A stretch of DNA of 23,005 nt, taken from positions 1-23,005 of IMG/VR virus record IMGVR_UViG_3300027730_000154; one strand, 5' to 3'. Below are positions 1 to 23,005 of the stretch, piece by piece. Source of the DNA: a virus. Under the pieces are notes generated by a model. That model was not told where the DNA came from. It did no database searches and saw only the letters and a list, made by a program, of their open reading frames with translations. Position numbers and translations under genes: made by a program. The stretch's first letter is position 1; every line of letters begins with the position of its first letter.

Positions 1-13
1 TACATCACCCGCA

Positions 14-65
14 ACTATAGCACCATACTATAGCACCATACTATAGCACCATACTATAGCACCAT
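14..65. repeat. Four tandem copies of a 13-bp repeat
   Basis: The unit ACTATAGCACCAT occurs four times without a mismatch at 14-26, 27-39, 40-52 and 53-65. A partial copy (ACTATAGC) recurs at 331-338. Short tandem arrays next to terminal repeats are known in T7-like phages, where they are linked to concatemer processing, and iterons also serve as protein-binding arrays. Which applies here is unknown. Confidence 0.97.
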
Positions 66-74
66 AGCACTACT

Positions 75-97
75 ATGCTAACACTAATAGCATGCTA
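75..97. repeat. Short dyads: ATGCTA/TAGCAT hairpin and TAGCATGCTA palindrome
   Basis: ATGCTA at 75-80 and TAGCAT at 88-93 are reverse complements separated by 7 bases, and TAGCATGCTA at 88-97 is a perfect 10-bp palindrome sharing the right arm. They follow directly on the 13-bp tandem array. They are short enough to arise by chance in this TAG/CTA-rich DNA, so a function is only suggested by location. Confidence 0.6.
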
Positions 98-120
98 CCT
101 TACTCTTATATAGTATGTGA

Positions 121-161
121 GTACTTACTAACAATACTTATGCGCTAGCGTACTTACTAAC
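121..161. repeat. 12-bp direct repeat pair flanking an 8-bp palindrome
   Basis: GTACTTACTAAC is present at 121-132 and again at 150-161, a 29-bp period, with the palindrome CGCTAGCG at 143-150 between and abutting them. The arrangement resembles a protein-binding site but no known consensus is matched. Confidence 0.85.
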
Positions 162-257
162 TTGAGGAGGGTGGTAGCCTTTTTTGAGTTTTGTGATTCC
201 TTCCTTCCTTAAGCACCTATCTATTTTTTATAAACTTTTTCAGTAGTACCACATTAT

Positions 258-278
258 AGTACTTAGCTAGCTAGTACT
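258..278. repeat. Near-perfect palindrome around TAGCTAGCTA
   Basis: A 10-bp palindrome TAGCTAGCTA (264-273) is flanked by AGTAC (258-262) and GTACT (274-278), which are themselves complementary; one unpaired T at 263 interrupts the left arm. A second dyad, ATAGTAC-TG-GTACTAT, follows at 320-335. Both lie between the tandem array and the first gene. Confidence 0.7.
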
Positions 279-374
279 GCTATATACTAGATACCTAGTT
301 ACTACTGCATATAACTAAGATAGTACTGGTACTATAGCTGCTATCGGCACTATACCTAGTACTCTCCTATTCTT

Positions 375-380
375 TATAAT
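375..380 (+). promoter_or_regulatory. Weak candidate -10 box before the terminase genes
   Basis: TATAAT at 375-380 matches the bacterial -10 consensus and lies 41 bases before the first start codon, but the bases at the expected -35 position (about 352-357, ATACCT) do not resemble TTGACA. In AT-rich DNA such a hexamer is common. It could be an extended or phage-modified promoter, or chance. Confidence 0.25.
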
Positions 381-420
381 ACTAGTAATATGGAATATAG
401 AACTAAAGGAATACAGGCAA

Positions 421-969
421 ATGGATAAGGTTTTTACTGGTACAGCTGGGCGCGCACTTGAGCTACTAGGAAATGGAGTAAATGCAGAATCTGTTGCAGC
501 TGCACTAGGTGTTACTCCTAGTTATATTAGTACACTTATAGCAGATGAAGAATTTACTACTCAGCTAGTTACTCTTAAATATGAGAAGCTTAGTAAACAT
601 AATGAGCGCGATGATAAGTATAACTCAATAGAAGATAAGCTATTAGAACAGTTAGAATCACTTCGTCCACTTATGATGAGACCAATGGAAGTATTGCGAG
701 CAATTCAGGTAGTAAATGCAGCGAAACGCAGAGGTGCAGCTTCACCTGATTCTATTGTAAATAAACAAGCATTAGTACAACTTACAATGCCAATACAACT
801 AGTACAGAAATTTACTACTAATATAAATAACCAAGTAGTGGAAGTAGAAGGACAGGAATTAGTAACTATTGATTCTAAGTCACTACTATCTAAGATAGGA
901 AGAACAGATGACTACAAAGCAGCAACACCAGAACTTACATCAGCAACACCAAGTGCTACATCAGCGTAA
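421..969 (+). CDS. Putative terminase small subunit
   Basis: A 182-residue protein directly upstream of the large terminase gene. Residues about 12-45 (ALELLGNGVNAESVAAALGV...) read as a helix-turn-helix of the type small terminases use to bind packaging-site DNA. The middle is charged and helical, consistent with oligomerisation, and the C-terminal 20 residues are a low-complexity Thr/Ser/Ala/Pro tail. The small subunit recognises viral DNA and delivers it to the large subunit for cutting and translocation. The start is supported by AAAGGA at 405-410 with a 10-base spacer. The call rests on position, size and HTH pattern rather than a diagnostic motif. A generic phage DNA-binding protein is the alternative. 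Confidence 0.65.
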   Translation: MDKVFTGTAGRALELLGNGVNAESVAAALGVTPSYISTLIADEEFTTQLVTLKYEKLSKHNERDDKYNSIEDKLLEQLESLRPLMMRPMEVLRAIQVVNAAKRRGAASPDSIVNKQALVQLTMPIQLVQKFTTNINNQVVEVEGQELVTIDSKSLLSKIGRTDDYKAATPELTSATPSATSA

Positions 970-1108
970 TAAGGATGCAGCATGGGAACGCTTGATTATG
1001 ATTCAGGCACAGTTATCTTCTACTCCTGACTCTACTACTTCTCCTAACTCTTTAACTACGAGCATAGCTCTACTAACTAAACTATCTAATAAGTCTTACT
1101 ATGGCTAG
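908..1108 (+). CDS. Small overlapping ORF between terminase genes, unknown function
   Basis: A 66-residue ORF starting out of frame inside the end of the small terminase gene (62-base overlap) and ending 8 bases inside the large terminase gene. Its ATG follows a good ribosome binding site (AGGAAG, about 897-902). It fills the otherwise empty 131 bases between the two terminase genes, and the large terminase start has no obvious site of its own, so translational coupling is plausible. The first third is His/Gln-rich because it reads the neighbour's Ser/Thr/Ala repeats in another frame. The rest (NKDAAWERLIMIQAQLSS..., then Ser/Thr/Pro) uses codons typical of the window. I recognise no family. 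It could be a small packaging accessory protein, or only a coupling reading frame. Confidence 0.5.
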   Translation: MTTKQQHQNLHQQHQVLHQRNKDAAWERLIMIQAQLSSTPDSTTSPNSLTTSIALLTKLSNKSYYG

Positions 1109-2669
1109 ATATGACTCTAGAGCAGATGCAGATTTAGGATTTACTAAACATGAACTAGATGAAGCAGCAGCTAAACTTACTCCTGTAGAAGATGAGCCTA
1201 GTACTGTAGATGATTTTACCTTTACTAGTGATGAAGTAATTAATGCAGCTAAGGAATCTCCTGACTTTCTAGCAGGCTTAGTAATGCCAGCTATATTTAA
1301 ATACATGCTACCACCAGTATTCGTAGCTATTTGGAACTGGCTTGTATCCTTTGTTAATATATCTAGGATATTTCCACAGCTTGCAATAGGACTTCCTCGC
1401 GGCTTCGGTAAAACCACAGTTATTAAACTATTCGTAGTATTCTGTATCCTATTTAGTAGAAAGAAGTTCATACTTGTAGTTTCTAGTACTAGTACTCTAG
1501 CTGAAAACATCATTAGTGACATAGCTGATATGTTAGATGAACCTAATGTAAAGAAAGTATTTGGAGACTGGAGAGTAGGACTAGAAACTGATAGAAAAGA
1601 CTTAAAGAAGTTCGGCTTCAGAGGTAAAGATATTACTCTTGCAGGACTAGGTGCTGGTACTTCCTTACGTGGACTTAATATTAAGAATGAACGTCCAGAT
1701 GTAATGATATTCGAGGATATACAAACTAGGGAGTGCGCTGATTCAGAAGTACAATCTAATGCTCTTGAACAGTGGATGTATGGTACTGCTATGAAAGCTA
1801 AGTCTCCTCATGGCTGTATGTTCATATTTGTAGGTAATATGTATCCTACAAAAAACTCTATATTACGTAAGCTCAAACTAAATCCTAAGTGGACTAAGTT
1901 TATTGTAGGAGGAATTACTAGTAAGGGTGAATCACTATGGGAAGAACTACAACCTCTTACACAACTACTTCAGGAATTTGAGAATGACTTAGCATCTGGA
2001 CATCCAGAGATATTCTATAGTGAAGTGCTTAATGATGAAAACGCTAGTGTAAATAAGCGAATTGATTTATCTAAACTGCCACCATACCCATATACAGCAG
2101 ATGAAGTAATACTAGGCAATTATATAATCATTGACCCTTCTAATGATAAGTCTAATTCTGATAGTGTGGCTATAGGATACTTCGAAGTAATAGATACACT
2201 TCCTGTACTTAAAGACCTAGAGAATGCAAGACTAAGTCCAGGAGATACTATTAGAGTAGCACTTACTATGGCACTTAAGTATAACTGTCGCTTAGTAGCT
2301 GTAGAATCTAACGCTTATCAGTACTCCCTTCTATACTGGTTTAAGCACTTCTCTGAACAACTAGGAATACAAGGAATTAACTTTGTAGAAGTGTATTCTG
2401 GTGGACTTAGTAAGCCTACTAGAATACTTACTATGTTTAAAGCATACATAGCTGGCGAGTTCTTTATAGACCCTAAGTTAGTATCACAAGTACACTTAGA
2501 AATATCTCAGTATAACCATCTCAAACGAGATAATACTGATAACATATTAGACTTACTTACCTATGCTGCAAGAGTACTAGAACTATATGCTGAATTTATT
2601 CAGTTTGATTCATACCTACAGATAGTAGAAGAATCTAGAGAACTTATATTACATAACTCACCATTCTAA
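1101..2669 (+). CDS. terL: Terminase large subunit (ATPase/nuclease)
   Basis: The packaging motor: the ATPase pumps DNA into the prohead through the portal and the C-terminal nuclease cuts the concatemer. The 522-residue protein shows the Walker A loop GLPRGFGKT (97-105), Walker B VMIFED (201-206, catalytic E205) and a coupling-motif candidate FIFVGN (241-246). An RNase H-like nuclease domain has acidic residues at D345 (IIIDPSND), E402 (AVESNAY) and D480 or D484 (DNTDNILD). Length is normal for the family. The ATG at 1101 is the first in frame after a stop at 1074, but lacks a strong ribosome binding site. It overlaps the end of the upstream small ORF by 8 bases, suggesting coupling. The RGFGKT-type P-loop resembles podovirus DNA maturase B proteins. 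Confidence 0.95.
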   Translation: MARYDSRADADLGFTKHELDEAAAKLTPVEDEPSTVDDFTFTSDEVINAAKESPDFLAGLVMPAIFKYMLPPVFVAIWNWLVSFVNISRIFPQLAIGLPRGFGKTTVIKLFVVFCILFSRKKFILVVSSTSTLAENIISDIADMLDEPNVKKVFGDWRVGLETDRKDLKKFGFRGKDITLAGLGAGTSLRGLNIKNERPDVMIFEDIQTRECADSEVQSNALEQWMYGTAMKAKSPHGCMFIFVGNMYPTKNSILRKLKLNPKWTKFIVGGITSKGESLWEELQPLTQLLQEFENDLASGHPEIFYSEVLNDENASVNKRIDLSKLPPYPYTADEVILGNYIIIDPSNDKSNSDSVAIGYFEVIDTLPVLKDLENARLSPGDTIRVALTMALKYNCRLVAVESNAYQYSLLYWFKHFSEQLGIQGINFVEVYSGGLSKPTRILTMFKAYIAGEFFIDPKLVSQVHLEISQYNHLKRDNTDNILDLLTYAARVLELYAEFIQFDSYLQIVEESRELILHNSPF

Positions 2670-2683
2670 AGGAACAATACATC

Positions 2684-4702
2684 ATGGCAACACCTGATAT
2701 TCCATTTATACCATCTATCAAATCACAAGAAGCACTAGTTAACTTCTCTACTGTTATTGCACAAGCTAATATTAACAACCAACGCCAAAGGTTCTTAGAT
2801 ATTGACTTAGCTTATATTCGTGAGCAAGACCAGACTAAAGAACATAAGAGAGCGCAACTAGCTAATAAGTATGGTGATTCTAATCGCCTTCAGAACATCA
2901 CTATTCCAGTAGTAATGCCACAAGTAGAATCCGCAGTTACTTATCAAGCATCAGTATTCTTAACAGGTGTACCTATGTTTGGAGTAGCAGCTGACCCTGA
3001 ATTTATAGATGCAGCTCTCATGTTAGAATCAATCATTGAAACTGAGCAGATTCGTGGCGACTGGGTACGTAATCTTCTTATGTTCTTTCGTGATGGTTTT
3101 AAATACAACATTAGTGCTATAGAATGTTCATGGGATACTATGTCTACTGTAGCACTAGAGACTAATCTAGCACAAGGTATACAAGCTAAACCTAAGAATG
3201 TACTGTGGAGTGGTAATAAGCTTACTCGTATTAATCCATACAACTTCTTCTATGACACCAAAGTAGCGCCATCACAAATCTACATTGATGGAGACTATGC
3301 TGGTAAGCATGAACTTATGAGTAGAATTAAACTTAAGCAATTTGTAGCTAATCTTAAGTACCGTATGAACATGACTGAAGCATTTGAATCCTCTTCTAAG
3401 GGTGCTAGTGTACTAGGCATTGATACATCTTACTACTATATGCCTGATATTAATCCGCAAGTATCAGCAGAACTTAAAGATGGTGACTTCAATTGGATGT
3501 CTTGGGCTAAAATTGCTGGAGGTAAGCAAGAAATTAACTACAGTGATAACTACTTAGTTACTACTATCTATGCTAGAGTTATCCCAGCGGACTTTAATCT
3601 AAATCTACCAGAGCGTAATACTCCGCAGATTATGAAGCTGATACTAGTAAATCTATCTGTACTAATATATGCAGAGAAACAAACTAATGCACATAACTAC
3701 ATACCTATAGTATGTGGTGTACCTAACGAAGATGGCTTACAAGAACAAACTAAGACATTAGCTGAGAACTCTATTCCATTCCAGCAAGTAACTAGTGCTC
3801 TTATGAACTCAGTAATAGCTTCCCGCAGGCGCGCTATCAGTGACAGAGTTATCTATGACCCATCTAGAATTAGTGAAGCACAGATTAATAGTCCTAATCC
3901 TTCTGCTAAGATACCAGTACGACCAACTGCTTATGGTAAGCCAGTAGGAGAAGCAGTATATCCATTCCCATTCAGAGATGAACAAGCTGGCTTAGTACTA
4001 GGAGAAATCCAACAACTACTAGCTATTGGTAATGAAGTTAATGGTCAGAATAAGGCTAAACAAGGGCAGTTTGTTAAAGGTAATAAAACCCAATCAGAGT
4101 TTCAAACTGTTATGAACAATGCTAATGGTAGAGACCAACAAACAGCAATACTGTATGAAGCACAGGCATTTACTCCACTTAAGGAGATAATTAAAACTAA
4201 CATACTACAGTATCAAGGTGCTGAGAAGTTATTCTCTAAGAGTAAGAACCAAGCAGTACAAGTAGACCCACAACGTATGAGAGATGCAGTAATGGAGTTC
4301 AAACTATCTGATGGTTTAGTTCCTACTGATAAAGTAATGGATGCAGAAGCATTTACTATCTCCTTGCAAACTCTTGGTTCTAGTCCACAGCTTGCTAGTG
4401 GTTACAATATAGCACCATTATTCAGCTATCTAATGAAACAAAGAGGTGCAGACTTAACTCCTTTTGAAAAGACTCCTGAGCAGATAGCTTATGAAGAAGC
4501 AGTACTAGCATGGCAACAAGCAGTAGCAGCATTTGCTAAAGGCTTAGAATCAGGACAAGTTACACAGGAACAACTTCCACCACAACCTACTCCTGAACAG
4601 TTCGGCTATACACCAGCAGGTAATAATAGTGCTGCTACACCAGCTAGAACTACTCAGAATGTAAATAATATAACTAATAACATTACTAATAACCGCGCGT
4701 AA
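2684..4702 (+). CDS. Portal protein
   Basis: A 672-residue protein immediately after the large terminase, the usual place for the portal. The portal forms a dodecameric ring at one capsid vertex, docks the terminase during packaging and carries the tail afterwards. Sequence features fit podoviral portals of 600-750 residues: a long helical N-terminal half, a central region with conserved-looking arginines (SVIASRRRAISDRVIYD) and a Gln/Ala/Pro-rich helical C-terminus (about 595-645). The last 15 residues are an Asn/Thr repeat (NVNNITNNITNNRA), probably disordered. There is no single signature motif, so the call rests on size, order and overall pattern. AAAGGA before the ATG supports the start. 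Confidence 0.85.
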   Translation: MATPDIPFIPSIKSQEALVNFSTVIAQANINNQRQRFLDIDLAYIREQDQTKEHKRAQLANKYGDSNRLQNITIPVVMPQVESAVTYQASVFLTGVPMFGVAADPEFIDAALMLESIIETEQIRGDWVRNLLMFFRDGFKYNISAIECSWDTMSTVALETNLAQGIQAKPKNVLWSGNKLTRINPYNFFYDTKVAPSQIYIDGDYAGKHELMSRIKLKQFVANLKYRMNMTEAFESSSKGASVLGIDTSYYYMPDINPQVSAELKDGDFNWMSWAKIAGGKQEINYSDNYLVTTIYARVIPADFNLNLPERNTPQIMKLILVNLSVLIYAEKQTNAHNYIPIVCGVPNEDGLQEQTKTLAENSIPFQQVTSALMNSVIASRRRAISDRVIYDPSRISEAQINSPNPSAKIPVRPTAYGKPVGEAVYPFPFRDEQAGLVLGEIQQLLAIGNEVNGQNKAKQGQFVKGNKTQSEFQTVMNNANGRDQQTAILYEAQAFTPLKEIIKTNILQYQGAEKLFSKSKNQAVQVDPQRMRDAVMEFKLSDGLVPTDKVMDAEAFTISLQTLGSSPQLASGYNIAPLFSYLMKQRGADLTPFEKTPEQIAYEEAVLAWQQAVAAFAKGLESGQVTQEQLPPQPTPEQFGYTPAGNNSAATPARTTQNVNNITNNITNNRA

Positions 4703-4712
4703 GGATACAGCT

Positions 4713-4922
4713 ATGAGCCCATTTGTAGGTGCTAAGCATCAAAGAGATAAAGCTATATCCAGAGGTAATACATTAGCTTATAGAGTATGGACTACTGAAG
4801 AAGATGCTGAACTACTTAAGTATGAAAAAGAAGGTCATAGTATCTATGCTTTATCTAAAGCATTTAAGAGAAGTGAAAAATCTATTAAAACTAGACTACA
4901 TAAATTAAAAGAAAGGAATTAA
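4713..4922 (+). CDS. Small Myb/SANT-like helix-turn-helix protein
   Basis: A 69-residue basic protein. Residues 26-66 (W26 followed by TTEEDAELLKYEKEGHSIYALSKAF and KSIKTRLHKLKE) match the pattern of a Myb/SANT-like or GcrA-like tri-helical DNA-binding fold: Trp, acidic helix 1, a Gly-turn, then a recognition helix with lysines and arginines. It sits between portal and head-assembly genes, where a transcription regulator would be unexpected, so it could control late genes, bind packaged DNA or be a small virion component. The ribosome binding site AAGGA overlaps the portal stop. DNA binding is inferred from pattern only. Confidence 0.6.
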   Translation: MSPFVGAKHQRDKAISRGNTLAYRVWTTEEDAELLKYEKEGHSIYALSKAFKRSEKSIKTRLHKLKERN

Positions 4923-4926
4923 TTAA

Positions 4927-5190
4927 ATGTCTAAACTATTAACATCACTATATACTAAGTATGAATTTACACCTGATGAAACTATTCAGGCTACATCATT
5001 TACAGACTTACAACTTCAATTTTTACAAACCGAATTAGCTATTGCAGCAGAGGAGAAAATAACAGCGACATACGACCCACTTAATCCAGTATCATATGCA
5101 CAACGAGAAGCAGAACTAACAGGTAAGATGCTAGTATTACAGTATCTTATCGAATTAGGTAACACAGCAAGAGCAGCACAAAACACTTAA
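4927..5190 (+). CDS. Small conserved-type head-region protein, unknown
   Basis: An 87-residue acidic, mostly helical protein starting 4 bases after the previous stop and preceded by AAAGGA. Layout is YEFTPDE near the N-terminus, a central helix with many Gln/Leu, then EAELTGKMLVLQYLIELG. Small helical proteins of this kind often lie between portal and scaffold genes in podoviruses, but I do not recognise a named family. A head-assembly accessory role is suggested by context only. Confidence 0.65.
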   Translation: MSKLLTSLYTKYEFTPDETIQATSFTDLQLQFLQTELAIAAEEKITATYDPLNPVSYAQREAELTGKMLVLQYLIELGNTARAAQNT

Positions 5191-5221
5191 CTCACAACTT
5201 ATATTCAAAGGAAATACTATC

Positions 5222-5953: not shown

Positions 5954-5990
5954 TAACTAGTTTTATTTTTAACCAAATTAGGAGAAACAT

Positions 5991-6401: not shown

Positions 6402-6450
6402 CATCAAGTTAGAACCATTAATTTAATTAAATAAAGAAAAGGAATTTATT

Positions 6451-7671
6451 ATGAGTACAGGTATTTTACAGACTAATAATCTACCTATCGATTTAGCGAA
6501 GAAGTCGTTTGCTGGTATGATTACACGTCTTATGCCAAATGGTGCTGCACCATTGTTTGGTATGACTTCAATGTTAGGAGACGAACGTGCAGTACAAACA
6601 GAGCATGGTTACTTCTCTAAAACAATGCTATTCCCTGAATTGCAATTAAGTGCCGCAGTAGTAGCTGCTGATACAGTATTACCAGTTGTGTCTACAAGTA
6701 ACGTACTTCCAGGTATGATTATGCGTGTCAATACTACTGGTGAGAATATCATTATTAATAATGTAATTTCTCCTACTTCAGTGTCAGTATCTCGTGGCAT
6801 TGGTACAGTAGCTGCTGCTAACATTGCAATCAATGTTAAGCTTTACCAAGTTGGTTCTGCATTTGAAGAATCTTCTATCAGACCAAACGCACTTAATATT
6901 AACCCAGTACGTATTACTAACTTAACCCAAATCTTCCGTAATACTTGGGCTGTCAGTGATACTATGCGTGAGACAATGGTAATTGCTGGCGAAACTAACG
7001 TAGCAGAGAGCAAGCAAGACTGTGCAGCGTTCCATGCTGCTGATATTGAGAAGGGCTTATTCTTCGGTCAACGTTCACAAGGTACTAGAAATGGTAATCC
7101 ATTCCGTACTATGAATGGTCTTATCGCTATTGTTGGTAACTTGGCTAACTACCCATCTTACTATGTAGCACCTAACAACTTTACAGCAGCAGCTACTACT
7201 AACTACACACAGTTAGAGGGTTTTTTAGACCCAGTGTTTAACCAAGCTACTGACCCTAAAGTTGCTAACGAGCGTGTATTATTCTGCGGTGGTAATGCTA
7301 AACGTGTTATCAATAACATTGGTCGTTTGAATGGTACTTATCAGTTAGTTGATGGACAAACTAATTGGGGTCTACAATTTGCTACATTCAAAACAGCTCG
7401 TGGTATGTTCCGTCTTATCGAGCATCCATTGTTCAATAGTAATACTGATTGGTCTTCTATGGCTATTGCAGTTGACTTAAGTACATTTAAAATAGCATAC
7501 TTAGGCGACCGTAAAACACAGTCTAAAGACTTTAATGGTTCTAGCAATGAAGCTACTGATAACGGTATTGATGCAGTAGGTGGTACATTAACTACTGAGT
7601 TAACTACAGTTATTAAGAATCCTCCAGCTAACTCAATCATTACAGGCTTGACAGCAGCAGCAGTAGGTTAA
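6451..7671 (+). CDS. Major capsid protein (SU10/DUF5309-like)
   Basis: A 406-residue protein expected to form the icosahedral HK97-fold shell. It follows the scaffold and decoration genes. Residues about 63-135 look like an inserted beta domain (repeated V/T strands). The segment NLTQIFRNTWAVSDT (157-171), the helix after it, and GTRNGNPFRTMNGLIA (211-226) match the pattern I know from the SU10-type (DUF5309) major capsid family. Codon use is visibly different from its neighbours, with more GGT, CGT, AAC and TTC, as expected for a very highly expressed gene. AAAAGGA precedes the ATG. It ends with two consecutive stops, TAA TAG, then a strong terminator. Confidence 0.85.
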   Translation: MSTGILQTNNLPIDLAKKSFAGMITRLMPNGAAPLFGMTSMLGDERAVQTEHGYFSKTMLFPELQLSAAVVAADTVLPVVSTSNVLPGMIMRVNTTGENIIINNVISPTSVSVSRGIGTVAAANIAINVKLYQVGSAFEESSIRPNALNINPVRITNLTQIFRNTWAVSDTMRETMVIAGETNVAESKQDCAAFHAADIEKGLFFGQRSQGTRNGNPFRTMNGLIAIVGNLANYPSYYVAPNNFTAAATTNYTQLEGFLDPVFNQATDPKVANERVLFCGGNAKRVINNIGRLNGTYQLVDGQTNWGLQFATFKTARGMFRLIEHPLFNSNTDWSSMAIAVDLSTFKIAYLGDRKTQSKDFNGSSNEATDNGIDAVGGTLTTELTTVIKNPPANSIITGLTAAAVG

Positions 7672-11847: not shown

Positions 11848-12112
11848 GATGTTAAGTGATGAGGATATTAAAGCCATTGCTGATAAGTTAACAGAGTATA
11901 GTGGACTTAGTTCAGCAGAGCATAGAGACCATCACGAAGCACTTACCTTGTTTATACAAGAAAGAAGACAGAAGATGGAAGATTGGGCTAAGATTAGACA
12001 ACAGGTTAGCGGTTGGCTTATCATTGTAGTACTGGGAGGTATTGGTACTATTGTGTATAACAGTGTAATAAGAGGTGAGTCTACTAAACAGCAGTTGGAA
12101 AGGAAGCAGTAA
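11840..12112 (+). CDS. Single-TM small membrane protein, possible holin-like
   Basis: A 90-residue protein with an acidic N-terminus (LSDEDIKAIADKLTEYSG), a His/Asp-rich stretch (SSAEHRDHHEAL), a charged helix (ERRQKMEDWAKIRQQVSGW), one TM segment at about 58-74 (WLIIVVLGGIGTIVYNSVI) and a basic tail. I chose the ATG at 11840 because AAGG lies just upstream; a TTG at 11816 would add eight residues. This architecture is typical of a phage membrane protein family sometimes annotated as holin, beside the DPDETISSR protein. It could be a holin, antiholin or membrane anchor. The better holin candidate lies next to the endolysin. Confidence 0.6.
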   Translation: MSRMLSDEDIKAIADKLTEYSGLSSAEHRDHHEALTLFIQERRQKMEDWAKIRQQVSGWLIIVVLGGIGTIVYNSVIRGESTKQQLERKQ

Positions 12113-13644
12113 TGGCGCAAGTAAGTTACAGAGCTAATCTAGGTGCATCTACATTCCCATTCTTATCTGAGAATCAGGGACAGAGTATTATTGTTAAGCA
12201 ACAAGATAATATGTATATCCCAGCAGTTGAGAGTGGAGGTAGAGATAACCAAGATGTAGGCATTCCACAGATATACTACTGTCATAATGTACTACCTACT
12301 AGTCAAGGCTATAGCTCTGTAGGCTATTCAAGAGTATGTAATGCAGTAGCTGGTGAAACAGGATTTAGTACTGTATTTGTATTAAGAGATAGTTCTGAGA
12401 ATAAAGCGTATTTCTGTCATACTACAAATAACAAGAATTTTGTACAACTTCCAGGTAGTAGTACATGGTTACAAATTAATAGTATTGCAGGTGCAGCTAA
12501 CAAGCTTACAACAGTTGCACTAATTAGTGGAGTTACTTATATCTACTTTGCTAATATTGGTTGTTATCGCTATGACTTCGCATCTAATCTCTTAGTACCA
12601 GTAACACTTAATGGACTTACGCCTAGTGCTGTTATTGGTATTACTACTACTGCTGGTTACATGATTGCTTGGACTGCATCAGAGATAGCATGGAGTAGTA
12701 CTATTGATGCTACAGACTTTGAGCCATCTCTTAGTACTGGTGCAGGTGGTGGTGGAGTAGAAGGTGCGAAAGGCTCTATACAAGTATGTATTAACACTAT
12801 TGCAGGCTTCATTGTATATACTACAAGTAATGCAGTAGCAGCTTCCTATAGTGGTAATAGTAGATACCCATTTAACTTCAGAGAGATTGTAGGTGCAGGT
12901 GGACTTGCTAATCCTGAACTTGCTTCAGCTGATGGTAACAGTAGTGCTCAATACGCTTATACTACTTATGGTATGCAATCAGTAGGTATTCAACTGGCGC
13001 AAACTGTACTACCTGATGTAACTGACTTTATTGCAGGTAGCTATTTTGAAGACTTTGATGACTTCACATTGCAATTCAGTAGACAAGTACTTACTGGTAC
13101 TATGCAAAAGAAACTCACACTTATATCTTCACGATATCTTATTATCTCCTATGGAGTTAGTAGTCTTACTCATGCACTTGTATATGACATAATACTTAAA
13201 AGATACGGAAAGCTTAAGATAACTCACACTGATTGCTATGAGTATAATCTTTTGAATCCTGAGATTATTGAAACTCCTAAGAAGTCTATTGCATTTGTAC
13301 AAGCAGATGGTACTGTGTTCTTACTAGATACTACCTTTGGTGCAGCTAACTCTTTTGGTGTACTGCTTCTTGGTAAGTATCAGTATGTAAGACAGAGAAT
13401 GTTGGCGCTAGATACTGTGGTACTAGAGAATATACAAACTAATAATGCTTTTGCGCTATATGCTCAACCAGCTATTGATGGTAAGAATGTAACTACAGAA
13501 GCTGGATACCTACTTGAATCAGATGGATTACTTAGAAAGTATGGATTTAGTACAGTAGGTACTAACCAAAGTCTATTATTCTTCGGAGGGTTCTCACTTG
13601 TATCACTTGTTCTTAACTTTCATGTGCATGGTAGGAGTACATAA
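12112..13644 (+). CDS. Putative tail nozzle / DNA-stabilisation protein
   Basis: A 510-residue beta-rich protein with many repeating strand-turn units suggestive of a beta-propeller (for example LISGVTYIYFANIGCYRYD and NTIAGFIVYTTSNAVAASY). Residues 207-222 (LSTGAGGGGVEGAKGS) and 250-265 (SRYPFNFREIVGAGGL) resemble podoviral virion proteins annotated as tail tubular B/gp10-like nozzle proteins, which extend the tail tube and hold DNA in until ejection. It follows the adaptor/fibre block, consistent with that role. Start and stop both overlap neighbours in TAATG junctions, indicating coupled translation. The family call is moderate; virion structural protein is the safe description. Confidence 0.6.
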   Translation: MAQVSYRANLGASTFPFLSENQGQSIIVKQQDNMYIPAVESGGRDNQDVGIPQIYYCHNVLPTSQGYSSVGYSRVCNAVAGETGFSTVFVLRDSSENKAYFCHTTNNKNFVQLPGSSTWLQINSIAGAANKLTTVALISGVTYIYFANIGCYRYDFASNLLVPVTLNGLTPSAVIGITTTAGYMIAWTASEIAWSSTIDATDFEPSLSTGAGGGGVEGAKGSIQVCINTIAGFIVYTTSNAVAASYSGNSRYPFNFREIVGAGGLANPELASADGNSSAQYAYTTYGMQSVGIQLAQTVLPDVTDFIAGSYFEDFDDFTLQFSRQVLTGTMQKKLTLISSRYLIISYGVSSLTHALVYDIILKRYGKLKITHTDCYEYNLLNPEIIETPKKSIAFVQADGTVFLLDTTFGAANSFGVLLLGKYQYVRQRMLALDTVVLENIQTNNAFALYAQPAIDGKNVTTEAGYLLESDGLLRKYGFSTVGTNQSLLFFGGFSLVSLVLNFHVHGRST

Positions 13645-14304: not shown

Positions 14305-14814
14305 ATGAGTAACAAATTAGCAATGATTATACCTAGAAATTTATCTCCACACTTCACTTATAAAGAAGCTATTGCATCTCAGATAGCTGCTAGATATAAA
14401 CTAGATAACAGTATTCCAACTAAGGAACTGCTAGATGCAGCTATTAATACAGCAAATAACATGGAACTAGTAAGAACACTACTAGGTTCTAATCCAATAA
14501 GAGTAAGTTCTTGGTTCCGCTGTATTGCACTTAACCGCTTTCTAGGTTCTAAAGATACTTCCCAACATACTAAGTGTGAAGCAGTAGACTTTGACTGCGA
14601 CTCTTATGGTACTCCACTAGAGATAGTAATAGCTATAGTTGAATCTGATATTAATTTCGACCAAATAATTCTAGAACACGACTGGGTGCATATCAGTTTT
14701 AAAATCGTTGCTAGCAATAATAGAAGGCAAGTGTTAACATTACTTAGTAATGGCAGATATGCAAAAGGTATAACTAACAAAGTAGGAAAGGCACATCCAA
14801 AATGGGTATCTTAA
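14305..14814 (+). CDS. Endolysin, peptidase M15-type
   Basis: A 169-residue zinc peptidase of the M15 family (D-Ala-D-Ala carboxypeptidase/L-Ala-D-Glu endopeptidase type) that cuts peptidoglycan stem peptides at lysis. Visible motifs are IRVSSWFRC (65-73), S86-Q-H88 and A93-V-D95-F with zinc ligands H88 and D95, and W127-V-H129-I-S with the third ligand H129. Length is normal for a single-domain endolysin. There is no signal peptide or binding domain, so release should depend on a holin, encoded by the next gene, which overlaps by 13 bases. AAAGGA lies upstream of the ATG. The C-terminal tail is basic, as in many Gram-negative phage lysins. Confidence 0.9.
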   Translation: MSNKLAMIIPRNLSPHFTYKEAIASQIAARYKLDNSIPTKELLDAAINTANNMELVRTLLGSNPIRVSSWFRCIALNRFLGSKDTSQHTKCEAVDFDCDSYGTPLEIVIAIVESDINFDQIILEHDWVHISFKIVASNNRRQVLTLLSNGRYAKGITNKVGKAHPKWVS

Positions 14815-15296
14815 AGGAAATACTACCAACTATTGCTACTGCACTAGGTGGCCCACTAGCAGGATTAGCAGCAGAACTAGTATCTAAAGCATTAGGAGTT
14901 CCTACTAAAGACCCTAAAGCATTAGAAGGAATATTAGCTGGTATGCCACCTGATAAGTTAATACAACTTAAACAGATTGAATCAGACTTAAAAGTTAAAC
15001 TAGCACAACTAGGTTATGAGTCTGAAGCTAAGATTGAGGAATACAATGCTAGAGCATTAGAAGCAGTTAATGCTACTATGCAAGTAGAAGCTGCTAGTGA
15101 GCATTGGCAGACTTATAGCTGGAGACCATTCATTGGTTTTACCTTTGGTCTATATATTGCTAGTATGTTCATGTTACCTTTATTTGGAGTTACTCCAGTG
15201 GTAATGAGTCCTGACTTAGTAATAGCAGTAGGTGGTATACTTGGAGTTGCTAGCTGGTTTAGAGGTCAGAAGCAATTAGCAGAAACTAAATCTTAA
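14802..15296 (+). CDS. Holin-like protein (GTA three-TM holin type)
   Basis: A 164-residue membrane protein starting inside the endolysin gene. It has a hydrophobic N-terminal segment (about 7-31), a charged helical middle (about 35-100, coiled-coil-like), then HWQTYSWRPFIGFTFGLYIA (101-120) and two hydrophobic segments at about 109-129 and 134-152, ending in a basic tail. The WRPF motif before paired TM helices matches the GTA-type three-TM holin family. Holins form inner-membrane lesions that release the endolysin. GGAAAGG about 10 bases upstream supports this start and the overlap implies coordinated translation. No spanin gene is visible nearby. Confidence 0.75.
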   Translation: MGILKEILPTIATALGGPLAGLAAELVSKALGVPTKDPKALEGILAGMPPDKLIQLKQIESDLKVKLAQLGYESEAKIEEYNARALEAVNATMQVEAASEHWQTYSWRPFIGFTFGLYIASMFMLPLFGVTPVVMSPDLVIAVGGILGVASWFRGQKQLAETKS

Positions 15297-15322: not shown

Positions 15323-16819
15323 ATGAATCAAAATAACTTAACTACTAGCTACCAAGATACACTAATTGCTAATAGGTTAAAACGAATAGAAGCTTGGAAA
15401 AAAGGTCCAATGATACCAGCACCATTGAGACTTAATAATACTGCATATACTATTGGTACTGGTGAGATTCCAGCTAACGTAGTTAGATTTGCAGATGGTA
15501 CTCACTGGATATTAGCCACAGCAGGTACTACTGATGCAGCAGAACCAGTAGCTACTCCTATGGGCAGACCATTAACTGATGGTAGTTGTGTATGGTATCA
15601 AGACCAGTGGAGAACTGATAAATTAGCGGAAGGTGCGCCAACAGTTAAACCTGTTACTGCTGCACAACTTGCTGGTGAAGGACTTATATTTACCCGCTTT
15701 GCAGTAACTTCTGGCTTACCATTTGTAGTAGATTCAGAAGATGTTATTGTAGGTTCATTTAGTACTAACTACTTAAGTAGTTATAATCAAGTAGTTAACT
15801 TTAGTGGCGGTGGTAACTCCACTGGTGATGTAGTAGGTACTAACGCTGCTGGATTTAAAGGTGGAGTAGCTTGTACTAGAAGTTTTGCATATGACAAAGC
15901 AGCTCATAGTGAACTTACATTTGATGTTACTGACCATAAGTTCTCTTTAGGTTTCCATAACTTTGGCGCTCAGGCAATGGTAACTATTGATGGTAGATTA
16001 GTACAAGGAGAACCTAGTAGGTTTACTGTTGGTGGCGATGCTGGTCTTATCTATGACTTCAATGGCGAGTTCAAACGTAGAACTATTACAGTACCTGCTG
16101 CTGCACAATTCAGAGGTGTAGGACTTACTGCTAAAGGTTTCGTAAGTGCAACTCCTAAAGGTAATGATACTATGTTACTTCTAGCTGATAGTTATGGTTC
16201 TACTAGTAATCCATCATTATTCTTAATGGGAGTCATGGGATACCATCTTAAGAAAGAACTTGGCTTAAGTGGTATGATTAACTGCACTAGTGGTGGTACT
16301 GGGTACTTTAATAAAGTCACTGCACAGCAGTTAAATATGTTAGAACGATTAAACAATGTAGATAACATTGCTGCTTGGACATACTTAAATCCATCTCATA
16401 TATTATTTGCTATGGGTAATAATGATGTAAATCAGAATGAAAGTAATGCCAGATATTACATGAGAGCTAGTTGGGAGAAAGCTAGAGGACTATTTCCTAA
16501 TGCTAAGATATCAGTATGGACTTGTCATGGTGGTAGTACTGGACCTAGTGCTGGTACATTTGCTATGGGTGCTGCTATTAGAGCAGAGTTCAGAGCTTGG
16601 AATGACCCTAATAGTAGATTGATTGATATCTTAGGTACTTCTGCTGCACAGTCTATTGTGAGTGGTACTAGTAGAATTGACCTAGCTATCAATGCTGCTG
16701 AGAATGTTAGTTTTGTTGGTGGTTTTAATGATAACGCACATCCAAGTCCATTCGGTGCAAGGTACTTAGCTCAAAGATTAGCACAGTACATAAATGCAGC
16801 ATGGAATGGTGAGTACTAA
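15323..16819 (+). CDS. SGNH/GDSL-hydrolase tail protein
   Basis: A 498-residue protein. Residues about 37-97 form a small beta module (YTIGTGEIPANVVRFADGTHWIL...TDGSCVWYQ) like glycan-contact repeats of tail fibres. Residues about 280-498 show SGNH hydrolase blocks: LLLADSYG with nucleophile S290 (ADS in place of the usual GDS), GGTG (324-327, oxyanion glycine), GNND (365-368, with N366 or N367) and DNAHP (D470, H473 completing the triad). Such domains de-O-acylate surface polysaccharides, so it is probably a receptor-modifying tail component; substrate is unknown. It sits between lysis and ejection genes. AAAGGA precedes the ATG. Confidence 0.8.
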   Translation: MNQNNLTTSYQDTLIANRLKRIEAWKKGPMIPAPLRLNNTAYTIGTGEIPANVVRFADGTHWILATAGTTDAAEPVATPMGRPLTDGSCVWYQDQWRTDKLAEGAPTVKPVTAAQLAGEGLIFTRFAVTSGLPFVVDSEDVIVGSFSTNYLSSYNQVVNFSGGGNSTGDVVGTNAAGFKGGVACTRSFAYDKAAHSELTFDVTDHKFSLGFHNFGAQAMVTIDGRLVQGEPSRFTVGGDAGLIYDFNGEFKRRTITVPAAAQFRGVGLTAKGFVSATPKGNDTMLLLADSYGSTSNPSLFLMGVMGYHLKKELGLSGMINCTSGGTGYFNKVTAQQLNMLERLNNVDNIAAWTYLNPSHILFAMGNNDVNQNESNARYYMRASWEKARGLFPNAKISVWTCHGGSTGPSAGTFAMGAAIRAEFRAWNDPNSRLIDILGTSAAQSIVSGTSRIDLAINAAENVSFVGGFNDNAHPSPFGARYLAQRLAQYINAAWNGEY

Positions 16820-16836
16820 GTAGTTAAGTATAGAAT

Positions 16837-16860
16837 CTAAAGGACTAAAGGACTAAAGGA
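16837..16860 (+). promoter_or_regulatory. Triplicated Shine-Dalgarno: three tandem CTAAAGGA
   Basis: The 8-base unit CTAAAGGA occurs three times in a row immediately before the next gene (ATG at 16868). Each contains AAAGGA, the window's usual ribosome binding core. Only the last copy is at proper spacing (7 bases to the ATG). The extra copies may act as standby sites or reflect slippage. Confidence 0.8.
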
Positions 16861-16867
16861 GAATATT

Positions 16868-18103
16868 ATGGCGCAAGAAGTAGTAGCAAAGAAAGATAAG
16901 AAGTCGGGTAATCCATTAGGTAGTATTGCTGAAATCCTAGCATCTGCTGGACAGATTAATACTATCTTCAGTGGACAGGAACAGACTACTAGACAGAGTG
17001 GTAGTACTAGAACTAGTGGTCTTGATATCAGTCAACAAGGTATTGATAAAGTAATTCAAGATATATTAGAAAGTACTCAAGGACTTAGTGCAGTATCTAG
17101 TGGTCAACGTGGCGCTGGTTTGTATAATAGTACCACTAATCAACAATTAACTAATGACCTCCTCACTAGAACAGGTGGAGAAGCAGCTAAGTTATCAGCT
17201 AAAGAAGTTACTACCCAAGGTCCTAGTACTACTACAACAGTAACTCCTCCTAGTCTTGATATTGGTACAGCACTTCTTGGTACAGCTGCTACTACTATTG
17301 GTAAGAAATTATTCGAAGGTGCTGCTGATGGTACTATTCAGAACGCTAGTGGATTCATTGATGCACTTGTTAGTACTCCATCACTTAGCACAGCTAGTAG
17401 TGGACTAGGCTTCATTGATAGTGCTGTTAGTAGCGGTGGTGTAGGAGATTTAATTGGTGGTGCATTTGGCGGTGGTAGTGACTTAATAGGAGAAGTATTT
17501 GGTGGCTTAGATTTCTTAGGAGATGCTGGTGGCGCTCTTGGTGGAATTCCTATTGCTTCTATTGGTTTAGACATATTATCTGGTGACCCTGAAGATGCAC
17601 TAGGAGGCGCTGCTGGATATCTAATAGGTAATGCGTTACTACCTGGTATTGGTGGTCCGCTTGGTTCACTAGTATCAGAAATACTTCCTGTTGGTGATAT
17701 CTTTGATACAGTAGGTAGTTTATTTGGTGGACTCTTCGGTGGTTCAGTAGTATGTACAGAACTATTAAGACAAGGTAAGATGAGTAAGTACTTATATACT
17801 ACTGATATTATCTATGCTAGAGACCATATGTCAGCAGAAACTCTTAATGGATACAGATACTGGGGTATCCCATTAGTACGATTGATGAGGAGAAGTGAGT
17901 TAGTATCAAATATAGCAGCTTGGTTTGCTGTAGCACGAGCACACTATGTAGTATCTCTATATGATGATGGTTTCTATAATGCTAAACTAGCACGCAGAGG
18001 TAAGATTATTAATGCAATTGGAGTACCACTATGCAATATGATTGCAGCAGTAACTACTCCTAAAGATTGGTCAGTACTTTATACAGGTGGAAAGGTAGCA
18101 TAA
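16868..18103 (+). CDS. Putative ejection protein, glycine-rich (T7 gp14 analogue)
   Basis: A 411-residue protein, first of three consecutive candidate internal virion proteins. The N-terminal 130 residues are polar. Residues about 180-302 are Gly/Ala/Leu-rich with glycine-zipper spacing and a threefold motif (DLIGGAFGG, DLIGEVFGG, DFLGDAGG), suited to membrane insertion. From C296 the C-terminus (CTELLRQGKMSKYLYTTD...GYRYWGIPLVRLMRRSE) matches a module seen at the end of several phage virion proteins. By analogy with T7 it could form the outer-membrane part of the DNA-ejection conduit. The family link is architectural, not a clear homology. Start is supported by the triplicated AAAGGA. Confidence 0.6.
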   Translation: MAQEVVAKKDKKSGNPLGSIAEILASAGQINTIFSGQEQTTRQSGSTRTSGLDISQQGIDKVIQDILESTQGLSAVSSGQRGAGLYNSTTNQQLTNDLLTRTGGEAAKLSAKEVTTQGPSTTTTVTPPSLDIGTALLGTAATTIGKKLFEGAADGTIQNASGFIDALVSTPSLSTASSGLGFIDSAVSSGGVGDLIGGAFGGGSDLIGEVFGGLDFLGDAGGALGGIPIASIGLDILSGDPEDALGGAAGYLIGNALLPGIGGPLGSLVSEILPVGDIFDTVGSLFGGLFGGSVVCTELLRQGKMSKYLYTTDIIYARDHMSAETLNGYRYWGIPLVRLMRRSELVSNIAAWFAVARAHYVVSLYDDGFYNAKLARRGKIINAIGVPLCNMIAAVTTPKDWSVLYTGGKVA

Positions 18104-18104
18104 C

Positions 18105-19808
18105 ATGGCAGTAGCATCAGTAGCAGATATACTAGGAAGTCTAGGGGCATCAGCAGTTAGGTCTGCTGGTGATTCTTCTGCTGTTAATGATATAGCAGAT
18201 AACCTTAAAAGAGTTAAGGAAGATGAAGCAACTCAAATGCAACGAGCTTCTAAAGATGCAGAACTAGTACGTATGACTGAACAGCAGGGTCAACTTAACA
18301 GACAAGCTGCTAATGCTAGAGCTAAGCAACAACTTAATGTTGATGAAGTTATGGCTACTGTTGCTACTCAATTGCATAGTGAGTTCTTAAAGGCAGAACA
18401 ACTTGATAAGACTATTCAACAGAAAGAATCAGTAGGATTCTTTGATAATCCATTTGAATACATTATAAATCAAACTACTATCAATGATGATATAGATGCT
18501 TATAATGCTACTGCTGATTCTATCAATAGAAAAACTGGATACATAAAAGAAGTACAGAATCTTACTCAGGAAGCAGCGCAGACTAACTTAGCTACTATGG
18601 AAACAGTAAGTGAAGCTAGTGCTGCTGCTAGTGCTAGAGTAGCTGGTATGGAATTCCTCACTAGAGCTAATGATGCAAAAATCGCAGCTGGTACTATAGA
18701 CCTTAATAGAATCAATCAACTATCACAAATAGATAATAACAGATTAGACCTGTTATTAAAACAGAGACAACAAGTTAACAGTGAAGAAGACCAAGCTATG
18801 CAACGAGCTAACTTTGCTGCTGAGCAGAAGGAACGTGCTATCAGACTTGCACAGTTCCAAGAAGATGCTAAGGATAAAAATAAGAAGCGAGAAGTAGAAG
18901 CTAAATACTTAGCTATTGCTAATGCTGGTGCTAAAGTACTTGGTATTAGACAGTTCAGTTCTACTGAGGACTTTGAAATCTTTAGGAGAGCTAATAAGGA
19001 TGGTAAAGAGAAAGCTGATAGATTACTTGATGTAGGTTACCAAGTATTAGATAGAGAGACTACTGGTAAGCAGATTAAACTAGGTGACTCTCCAGCAGAT
19101 ATTGGTAAGTTCCTAGTAAATACTAGAGGTACGCTTGCACCTACTCAGCGCAAGATACAGGAACTTATAACTAGTACCCATCAAGGTGTAGCTAGTGGCA
19201 CTCTTAGTGGAGTAGATAAAGGTGCTAGTATTGACCTAAAGAACCCAGCAGCAGTTACTGCACAGGCTAATAAGTTAATTGGTATAACAATAGAAACTAT
19301 GCAGAAAGATAGTACAGCAGATAGAGAGAAGAATATCTATGCTACTCCTACATTATCTAGTGTAGCTGCTACAGTTCCAGCAATTAAGAATAATAACCTG
19401 TATATTAAACTGATTGAACCACAACTTAAAGTACTTGGTGATAAGCCAATTAACCCACAAGAACTAATTAATCAGACAGCAGTAGCTATGAAGAATAAAA
19501 GTATTACTTTTGCTGAAGGTGTACAAGGACTAGAAAGACTCTTTGGTGCAGCAGTAGTAACTAACAATGTACTTAACTCTTATGAGAGTGTAGGACTTCC
19601 AGCACAGAAGAAACTAAATGCACCTTATAAAGCATCTGATGCTATACCATTCTACAGTACTAAGACTAGAGACTTCGCATCTCCTACAGATGTTAAAGCT
19701 GCATTAGTAGCTAGACTTACTGCTATGGAAACTGAAAGAGGTGCTGACCCTGCTAGTGCTCTAAATACTTTTGAAACACTTATCTCTAGCCCACAAGTAA
19801 GGAATTAA
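18105..19808 (+). CDS. Putative ejection protein, coiled-coil rich (second internal virion protein)
   Basis: A 567-residue, strongly helical, charged protein starting one base after the previous stop, with GGAAAGG upstream. Residues about 25-110 and 140-275 are Ala/Gln/Glu/Lys-rich with heptad-like spacing (NDIADNLKRVKEDEATQMQRASKDAELVR and EQKERAIRLAQFQEDAKDKNKKREVEAK), predicting coiled coils. The C-terminal half is mixed. It has no signal peptide or TM segment. Position between a membrane-active glycine-rich protein and a very large protein parallels T7 genes 14-15-16, suggesting the periplasmic tube component. This is inference from order, size and composition. Confidence 0.55.
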   Translation: MAVASVADILGSLGASAVRSAGDSSAVNDIADNLKRVKEDEATQMQRASKDAELVRMTEQQGQLNRQAANARAKQQLNVDEVMATVATQLHSEFLKAEQLDKTIQQKESVGFFDNPFEYIINQTTINDDIDAYNATADSINRKTGYIKEVQNLTQEAAQTNLATMETVSEASAAASARVAGMEFLTRANDAKIAAGTIDLNRINQLSQIDNNRLDLLLKQRQQVNSEEDQAMQRANFAAEQKERAIRLAQFQEDAKDKNKKREVEAKYLAIANAGAKVLGIRQFSSTEDFEIFRRANKDGKEKADRLLDVGYQVLDRETTGKQIKLGDSPADIGKFLVNTRGTLAPTQRKIQELITSTHQGVASGTLSGVDKGASIDLKNPAAVTAQANKLIGITIETMQKDSTADREKNIYATPTLSSVAATVPAIKNNNLYIKLIEPQLKVLGDKPINPQELINQTAVAMKNKSITFAEGVQGLERLFGAAVVTNNVLNSYESVGLPAQKKLNAPYKASDAIPFYSTKTRDFASPTDVKAALVARLTAMETERGADPASALNTFETLISSPQVRN

Positions 19809-19813
19809 TACTT

Positions 19814-22800
19814 ATGTCATTACTAGATGAATTGAATACTAGAAATACTACAGCTATACAATCAGGACAGCCAGCAGAAGAAGGCTTTGCAGAACTTCCT
19901 GATTACCTAGTTGCAGCAGATTTACATAACCAAGCAGGTGATGGTGGATTTAGCTTCTTTGACCCTAGTACTTGGGAACAAGGACTTAGTGATGCTAAGA
20001 GTTTTGTTGCTACTAGTGTTATCAGTGGCGGTGCTAGTATCTATAACAGCGGTGTAGCTATCAGTAACTTCTTTGGTAATGATGCAGAGGAGATAGATAT
20101 TGCTGCTGCTATTGCTGATATTGATTCTGACTTAGGTTTCTACTATGAAGATAACAAGCAAGCAGTAGATTTAGCTGGCTTCATTGCTACTAGTCTTATC
20201 CCAGGTACTCTTGGAATTAAAGCACTTAATGCTGCTAAAGCAGGGTATGTAGGTAAGACTATGGCAGCAGCTACTAATCTGGCTGTGCCGAATACAGAGA
20301 TACTAATAGCGAAAGCGGCTAAGGAACTAGCGCAGTCTCAGGCAGTCTTTTCTAATCTAAATGCAGGAGTACTTAAGGCTTATGGTGCAGGGTTACAAGC
20401 AGCTGCTGTTGAATCTATAGTAGCAGAAGTAGCTGTAACTGCAACTATGTTTAGAAGTCCTATACTAGAGAACCAAGATATAGGAGATTTAACTGCTAAT
20501 GTATTTACTGGCGCACTCATAGGTGGTGCTATCGGCGGTGCATTTAATGCAGCCAAAGTATTCGGTGGTATTAAGAACAAGCTAACTCCAGTAGATGATG
20601 CACTTAAACCAATACAACAACAATCAGCATTACCTGATAGCTTCTTAGAAACTGATAAAATATTAGTAGCGCTAGGGGATAGAGATAGAGTAGCATCTGC
20701 TACTGTTGTATCAGACTTACTTGAAGAAGCTACTATTACTAGAGTAAGAAAGAATACACTTCAAACACTAGAGAATGAAGTAGGTATTCAAATGCAGAAG
20801 TTTGCTGGTAAGGATGCAGAACTAGCGAATCTAATGACTTCATCAATAAAAGAGATTCCTACAGATGTAGCACAAAGCTCACTGTTTGGTGCTACTAGAA
20901 TGGGAAGGATTGCGACTAGACTACCTGAAGAAACAATCATAGCTAAGGAAATGAAAGAGATAGGACTAGCTAACTTGGATGATTTGAATGCACCAGTTAA
21001 GACTCCTAGTCGCGCTATTGGTTATGTATCTCTTACAGGAGAGAATAAAGGTAAGGTACTATGGGAAGCACCAAAGGTAACTACTCTTGGTGACCAATTC
21101 GCTAGTGCCAATGACATAGTACGAGCAGCTAAGAATGAAGGATTCTCTATATCTAAAGTGTGGAGTCCTACTAAATCTAGCCTTAAGAGCGCACAACTAC
21201 GAGAAGTATGGGTAGATAAGTTCGCTAAGATAATTCCTAAGATGGTAATTGGTGAAGATGATATCCCACTTCTTGAGAAGTACTATAGGACTGTACTATC
21301 TCCTCCACAAGGAGGACTGGAACTAAGTATTAAAAACGCCAAAGGTCAAGTTACAGTACTTACTAATACTCAAGATATGCTTGCACATATAGTTAACAAG
21401 AAAGAAACATTAGCAAAGAAACTACTACTTGAAGAAAAGCTAAGTGTAGAAGAGATTGCAGCTAAGTTGAATGTTAAACAAAGTATGCTTGAAGGACAGA
21501 AAAGTGCTATTGGTTCTAAAGATATGAAAGATTACTTTGCTAGACAAAGTTATCAAGAATCTTATACTAGAGACTTAATTGCTAAAGGTGAGTGGAAGTC
21601 AGATAAAGGATTATATCCTATAGGATTAGAACCTAAGTATGCTAAAGTAGCATATGATACTACACGCCTAGAAGCTATTGATGGTAATGTACTTAATGGT
21701 ATGGTAGATATTCAGCAGAAATATAAGCTATACATGCAAGGAGTTGATAACGCTATATCTAATGCACTTGGTGATGATGATTTGTATAAACAACTATTCA
21801 CACTATCTGATGATGATATCCTTAAGGCTAACAGGTTTGGTTCACAGGCATCATTCTTAGGATTCAATAACAGTAACTATGATTCACTAGGTTCTAAGAC
21901 TCAGTTCTTAGGCGCAGTAACTGCACGTATTACTAACAAGTTTAAAAACGCCACTAGTGATGCTATAAATCCGCTAGGACTTCAACTGCTATCCAAGCCA
22001 CAAGCAGCTATAGAATTTGCAACTATCAATCAGGCAGTAAGTAACAGTGGTGAAGCATACATCCTAAGAGGTAATGCACTTATCCCTAGAAGGCTACAGC
22101 AGTACTTAGATGATATTGGTACAGGTAAGCCTAATGTAGTAGAACCTAAGTTTGCACCTAATACTAAATTAGAGATTCCTATTGATAACCCTGAGACATT
22201 GGAAGCAGTTAGAACTCATATTAATGTGAATGGTTCTAGATACAGCAAGGAAAAGGCTCTTAGAGCTGCACAGGGGCTAGAGCATCATGTAGATAGCCAA
22301 TATACATTCTACCCTATTAGAAAGGATTACAGGGACTTTAAGTACTACGCATTTGTAACAGATGAAAAGATAACTGGTACAGGACATAGTAGTATGATTC
22401 ATGCTAATAGTCCTGAAGCATTAGAAGCATTGATTGCTAAAGTACCTCCTGAACTTAAGGTTATTACTGACAAGCAATCTAAGGACTTTTTTAAAGCTAA
22501 AGGTGAATATGACCATGCTAGAACTCTTAATGAGAACTACATTGATACTAAGCTAAAAAGAGCTGGTGTTGATAGTGACTACTTTGTACAGACTGACCCA
22601 CAGAAGATAGTTAACACATGGCTTGAACAACATCACAGACAAGACAGTGTTCTTGCTAAGGAGTTAGTACGTGCTAAGAATGAAAAGCAGTTTTTAGAAC
22701 TAGAGAAACTAGGTCAGCAATATACTAATGTAGCTACTAGTACTAAAGGCGGCTCATCAAGAGCAGTAGAAGCAACTGTTAATAACCCTTATGAGAACTA

Positions 22801-23005
22801 CATTAAGACTGCACTTAATATTAGTACTGCTAATGAGCAACCACTGCTATCTGGATTTAATAACCTGATGGATAGAGGTTTTACTAAGATAGTAAATGCT
22901 TTAGATAGTGCATTACCTTCTGTAGGTAAGGTAGATGACTTAGCTCTTATTAATGAAGCACTAGAAAAGTACGGTGCTAAGAGTGGTTACTATGATGCAG
23001 CTACT
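19814..23005 (+). CDS. Large putative ejection protein (T7 gp16 analogue), partial at window end
   Basis: Starts at ATG 19814, preceded by AAGGA, 5 bases after the previous stop. The frame stays open for all 1064 codons to the last base of the window, so the protein is longer than 1064 residues. It begins MSLLDELNTRNTTAI and has a Gly/Ala hydrophobic segment at about 231-250 (TGALIGGAIGGAFNAAKVFGG) and another at about 70-85, consistent with membrane contact. Long helical stretches follow, including a helix-turn-helix-like LSVEEIAAKLNVKQSML. I see no lysozyme or transglycosylase Glu motif in the translated part. Very large proteins at this position are ejected with the DNA in podoviruses. The function is inferred from location and size. 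Confidence 0.7.
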   Translation, partial: MSLLDELNTRNTTAIQSGQPAEEGFAELPDYLVAADLHNQAGDGGFSFFDPSTWEQGLSDAKSFVATSVISGGASIYNSGVAISNFFGNDAEEIDIAAAIADIDSDLGFYYEDNKQAVDLAGFIATSLIPGTLGIKALNAAKAGYVGKTMAAATNLAVPNTEILIAKAAKELAQSQAVFSNLNAGVLKAYGAGLQAAAVESIVAEVAVTATMFRSPILENQDIGDLTANVFTGALIGGAIGGAFNAAKVFGGIKNKLTPVDDALKPIQQQSALPDSFLETDKILVALGDRDRVASATVVSDLLEEATITRVRKNTLQTLENEVGIQMQKFAGKDAELANLMTSSIKEIPTDVAQSSLFGATRMGRIATRLPEETIIAKEMKEIGLANLDDLNAPVKTPSRAIGYVSLTGENKGKVLWEAPKVTTLGDQFASANDIVRAAKNEGFSISKVWSPTKSSLKSAQLREVWVDKFAKIIPKMVIGEDDIPLLEKYYRTVLSPPQGGLELSIKNAKGQVTVLTNTQDMLAHIVNKKETLAKKLLLEEKLSVEEIAAKLNVKQSMLEGQKSAIGSKDMKDYFARQSYQESYTRDLIAKGEWKSDKGLYPIGLEPKYAKVAYDTTRLEAIDGNVLNGMVDIQQKYKLYMQGVDNAISNALGDDDLYKQLFTLSDDDILKANRFGSQASFLGFNNSNYDSLGSKTQFLGAVTARITNKFKNATSDAINPLGLQLLSKPQAAIEFATINQAVSNSGEAYILRGNALIPRRLQQYLDDIGTGKPNVVEPKFAPNTKLEIPIDNPETLEAVRTHINVNGSRYSKEKALRAAQGLEHHVDSQYTFYPIRKDYRDFKYYAFVTDEKITGTGHSSMIHANSPEALEALIAKVPPELKVITDKQSKDFFKAKGEYDHARTLNENYIDTKLKRAGVDSDYFVQTDPQKIVNTWLEQHHRQDSVLAKELVRAKNEKQFLELEKLGQQYTNVATSTKGGSSRAVEATVNNPYENYIKTALNISTANEQPLLSGFNNLMDRGFTKIVNALDSALPSVGKVDDLALINEALEKYGAKSGYYDAAT

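Follow-up and report, generated by a model that had tools for sequence, protein, structure and literature searches.

A probably lytic, podovirus-like phage lineage without GATC: silent elimination of a restriction-type site and its candidate drivers

The elimination of restriction sites by lytic phages has already been described, and the lineage presented here is a new and extreme case of it. In the survey by Rusinov et al. 2018, where elimination denotes a compositional bias below 0.1, only the smaller share of phage-site pairs showed it, chiefly pairs involving non-temperate phages and orthodox type II systems, while GATC was under-represented in every one of the 46 phages with a host that encodes a matching endonuclease (PMC6286503). 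Individual examples include a Staphylococcus podovirus with two GATC copies and no GGNCC (PMC6346686) and phiX174, a 5.4-kb phage of another kind from which GATC is wholly absent and for which an explanation through mismatch repair and MutH has been discussed (PMC5014478). Escherichia phage T7, which is virulent and of similar size to the phage examined here, belongs to a different family and has 6 of 141 expected GATC copies and none of 9 expected CTGCAG; unlike the present lineage, it retains GGNNCC and most GCTCC and loses CCWGG (2/83). Whether such losses reflect restriction or Dam/MutH has long been discussed for T7 and phiX174. With the lytic dsDNA phages of the Rusinov survey, the present lineage shares the removal of a palindromic type II site whose expected number lies well above 15, whereas it differs in having fully or nearly lost a further 6-base site together with two sites of degenerate or asymmetric type, and in that the enzyme is one that we infer. 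It is less ordinary that the count is exactly zero over approximately 41 kb and that several sites have been lost together.

The window, that is, the whole stretch of 23,005 bases that was analysed, is a 23-kb IMG/VR virus record (IMGVR_UViG_3300027730_000154) and represents a fragment of a phage. This phage is a distant relative of Pseudomonas phage 119X (Fredfastierviridae, Jamesmcgillvirus) and of Aeromonas phage P5 (OM519319), with approximately 29-39% protein identity to these two phages, EBPR podovirus 3 and Polaromonas phage Tiera. Homologues of the terminase, portal, capsid and polymerase follow the 119X-type order of the Fredfastierviridae, in which terminase, portal, capsid and structural genes precede replication genes of opposed orientation; the proteins are approximately 29-37% identical to those of 119X and closely allied phages. 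By terminase, Aeromonas phage P5 is the closest named relative. On the + strand, the ORF at 421-969 stands where, by comparison with 119X, the small terminase subunit would sit, and has no Pfam match. Further along the same strand are predicted the terminase large subunit (1101-2669; phrog_38, E = 1.3e-53; 37% identity to Aeromonas phage P5), the portal protein (2684-4702; phrog_15554, E = 2.2e-69), the major capsid protein (6451-7671; phrog_1328, with tblastn matches in 24 phage records), a virion structural protein (12112-13644; phrog_16563), an endolysin (14305-14814; phrog_894, E = 1.3e-24), a holin-like protein with three membrane segments (14802-15296; PF11351), a putative GDSL/SGNH-type hydrolase (15323-16819; PF13472, a weak match under the Pfam cut-off) and a large protein (19814-23005) that runs off the window and is placed like the last structural gene, a large one, in 119X-type phages. 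Short tandem repeats of approximately 14 bases (ACTATAGCACCAT) lie upstream of the structural genes, at positions 13-70 of the window and at L019:100-158, and differ slightly between the window and the near-identical contig G001. The tetramers AGTA, TACT, TAGT and CTAG are unusually abundant in the window and G001, also in intergenic DNA such as window positions 1-420.

Three further contigs, G001 (38,469 bases), G002 and G003, match the window at 99.0-99.95% identity over the aligned parts. The opposed half of G001 encodes a family A DNA polymerase, a Dda-like helicase, a primase-like protein and a nucleotide kinase, together with a PD-(D/E)XK exonuclease and a Sak4-like annealing protein. 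Neither integrase nor repressor was found among the ORFs scanned of a genome whose sequence may be short by a few kb, and a search for tRNA genes gave none; the phage is probably podovirus-like and lytic. A profile search of G001 with the MethyltransfD12, MutH and DpnII families returned no match, nor was a Pfam methyltransferase present among the other scanned ORFs of the phage contigs. The phage thus appears, in contigs that may be missing a few kb of its genome, to carry no gene recognisable as that of a Dam-type methyltransferase, MutH or DpnII.

A direct count over positions 1-23,005, covering all frames and the non-coding DNA, gives zero copies of GATC, as the initial annotation had claimed, and its estimate of approximately 80 copies by chance agrees with the 78 expected from base composition. 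The comparison with Markov and codon-shuffled nulls that it had proposed leads to the same result. A maximal-order Markov estimate from trinucleotides predicts 63.8 copies in the window (z = -8.0, the lowest among the 256 tetramers), and 500 synonymous shuffles within each gene, which preserve the proteins and each gene's codon usage, predict 58.3 +/- 5.2 (range 43-77), distributed over the three codon phases as 41.8, 7.5 and 9.0, against 0, 0 and 0 seen. Nor did GATC turn up in numbers in the remaining genome, which had been named as the finding that would speak against avoidance: it is absent from all four near-identical contigs, including G001 (approximately 109 expected) and the 2.9 kb by which G002 reaches beyond the others (6 expected). 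With 0 of 64 in the window and 0 of 109 in G001, the site is eliminated in the sense of an observed/expected ratio below 0.1 at an expected number above 15. The absence of GATC is real and far beyond chance.

Genes occupy 96% of the window, and the site is avoided in them through silent choices. Aspartate preceding a codon that starts with C is encoded by GAC in 42 of 42 cases, whereas elsewhere GAC accounts for 63 of 334 (19%); GGA, AGA or CGA is followed by TC in 0 of 322 cases in the window genes, and a search of the same genes for xxG-ATC codon junctions found none. Both codon rules had been read from the sequence beforehand, the second for AGA and GGA only, and both hold throughout; the GACCCT examples given for the first exist as well, with positions corrected from 2132, 2992 and 19968 to 2133-2138, 2993-2998 and 19961-19966 (+ strand). 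Since the dipeptides able to create GATC (Asp-Leu, Asp-Pro, Asp-His, Asp-Gln and Asp-Arg) are not generally depleted in the window proteins, avoidance acts at the DNA level and leaves the proteins unchanged. Strong selection against GATC through codon choice, which had likewise been proposed, is supported by all nulls and by the comparison with relatives. A SNP test covering 77 differences found no new GATC where only approximately one would be expected, and is therefore uninformative on ongoing purifying selection.

Depletion of GATC is lineage-specific and scattered over the tree of relatives. In 94 related loci the median observed/expected ratio is 0.77, with eight loci below 0.35 and three below 0.1. 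On a terminase tree built by a quick method, in which the three most depleted rows sit on long end branches and the placement of any single row is unsure, the depleted label needs seven changes, at least six of them forced by well-supported branches; given these forced changes, depletion has arisen or disappeared repeatedly. It thus tracks the lineage or the host and not deep ancestry, a pattern expected of a trait that follows the host. Additional scans aimed at close relatives recovered the same species again, or approximately 50% identical relatives that retain GATC. Among relatives, observed and expected counts are 177/231 in 119X on Pseudomonas, where the site is thus not eliminated, 154/190 on Polaromonas and 234/237 on Caulobacter, against 3/154 in Aeromonas phage P5. 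A Vibrio phage from the wider group retains roughly half of the expected copies (94/172) and has a gene for an N6/N4 methyltransferase whose specificity is unassigned. In Vibrio phage vB_VspS_VS-ABTNL-3 (L140), which belongs to the wider group, a different site, GGCC, is almost eliminated (2/62). The window lineage therefore offers a clean and quantified complete elimination inside a clade of approximately 95 related loci with scattered GATC loss, a natural experiment in which the hosts of GATC-free and GATC-bearing relatives would separate restriction from Dam/MutH.

Selection has purged this lineage of GATC, probably through an orthodox type II restriction-modification system of the Sau3AI/DpnII/MboI type in its usual hosts; the absence, its strength, its synonymous route and its lineage specificity are observed, while the enzyme responsible, the host that carries it and cutting as the mode of action are what we infer. 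Unmodified phage DNA bearing GATC would be cut on entry into the host, and a phage without a recognisable methyltransferase would be unable to protect itself, so that GATC-free variants would win and synonymous changes would be selected. The same host, or set of hosts, would probably possess further restriction systems, leading to the loss of CTGCAG, GGNNCC and GCTCC. CTGCAG is present in 0 copies against 21 expected, GTGCAC in 0 against 9, GGNNCC in 1 against 34 and, in the window and G001, GCTCC/GGAGC in 2 against 32; codon shuffling, in which one 253-base ORF was read in the wrong frame with negligible effect, gives 0/22 for CTGCAG, 1/14.5 for GGNNCC and 2/42 for GCTCC/GGAGC. Most relatives keep these sites. 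The asymmetric GCTCC/GGAGC has been lost only in the window/G001 lineage, and a specificity for it matches no restriction enzyme known to us. Together with GATC, these losses could, rather tentatively, be read as a record of several restriction systems of one host, including one with GCTCC/GGAGC specificity, and the full set of missing sites may help host prediction for uncultured phages. Low counts of AATT, CATG and A-runs were not taken as restriction signals, as they are low in many relatives too or reflect homopolymer effects.

The initial annotation had left the cause between a GATC-cutting restriction system and Dam/MutH-linked processing. The evidence leans towards the former because other restriction-type sites have been removed too, and the loss of CTGCAG, GCTCC and GGNNCC points to hosts equipped with several restriction systems more than to Dam/MutH acting by itself; against restriction stands Aeromonas phage P5, which is almost free of GATC and has not lost GGNNCC, GCTCC and CTGCAG to the same degree. 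Dam/MutH thus stays a serious rival, although one that we rank below restriction and consider distinctly less likely. In a gammaproteobacterial host, MutH would nick or cut GATC in under-methylated replicating phage DNA, or MutHLS mismatch repair would hinder replication and packaging. The same loss in T7 and in Aeromonas phage P5 is consistent with this, as the host genera of both are known to carry Dam and MutH, and so is the retention of GATC by the relatives on Pseudomonas, Polaromonas and Caulobacter. A MutH-based counterselection has also been proposed earlier for the GATC-free phiX174 (PMC5014478). However, if Dam/MutH acted alone, GATC would be expected to be the sole affected site, and the losses of CTGCAG, GCTCC and GGNNCC are left unexplained; moreover, the Vibrio phage mentioned above retains about half of its GATC on a host genus bearing Dam and MutH, though it encodes a methyltransferase. 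As T7 loses other sites as well, MutH may act jointly with restriction.

Methyl-directed restriction of the DpnI type, or hosts that alternate between DpnI-type and DpnII-type systems, would be an improbable driver. A GATC-free genome would be immune to both kinds, and GATC is the single methyl-dependent site found under-represented in phages, but methyl-dependent enzymes in general show weak avoidance, which is ascribed mainly to type II systems (PMC6286503), and DpnI-type enzymes attack only phage propagated in hosts that methylate GATC. Less probable still, and very doubtful, is a phage-encoded GATC-specific nuclease that degrades host DNA and against which the phage has purged GATC from its own genome: nuclease genes do occur in lytic phages, and a PD-(D/E)XK protein is present at L020:12967-13908, but this protein matches phage exonuclease families and adjoins the Sak4-like annealing protein, and the phage contigs, from which a few kb of genome may be missing, gave no match to a MutH, Sau3AI or DpnII domain. 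Mutational bias, codon bias or chance in place of selection is the least likely of all, for despite strong compositional quirks (abundant AGTA, TACT and CTAG; low AATT, CATG and A-runs) GATC is an extreme outlier at exactly zero under nulls that preserve trinucleotides or codon usage, while GATA and GACC lie above expectation.

If restriction is the driver, the missing sites would describe the host's defences, and the earlier suggestion of such a fingerprint is plausible, although it has led to no host here. Searches for spacer and other DNA matches, using either half of G001 as query against three taxonomic samples (287 and 399 genomes of two phyla and 346 of a MutH-bearing order), yielded only noise beyond two known bins; short matches at L019:5347 were discarded, as they fall inside a Pro/Ala-repeat gene, and no convincing spacer was among them. 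One of the two bins pairs a GATC-poor relative (G005) with Ponticaulis and contains no MutH/Sau3AI or DpnII match; this pairing is probably a binning error, because the bin contigs examined have a GC content of 0.53-0.56 against 0.375 in the phage contig. In the other, a relative contig with 4 of 142 expected GATC copies (G007:C45) shares its bin with a genome encoding a Sau3AI endonuclease (NF040973, 430.6 bits against an NCBIfam cut-off of 300) beside a C5 methyltransferase. The two adjoining genes lie at L104:9329-12041 in a 1.2-Mb groundwater bin (nzgw467), amid housekeeping genes. MutH/Sau3AI-domain matches in frames of 458-470 amino acids occur in only 4 of the 287 sampled genomes of that bin's phylum, and the phage clade in only 1 of them, so that the pairing obtained from metagenome binning is suggestive and not proof. 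An 8-kb contig of the same bin (L131, G007:C1), possibly another mobile element, has 4 GATC copies against 22 expected.
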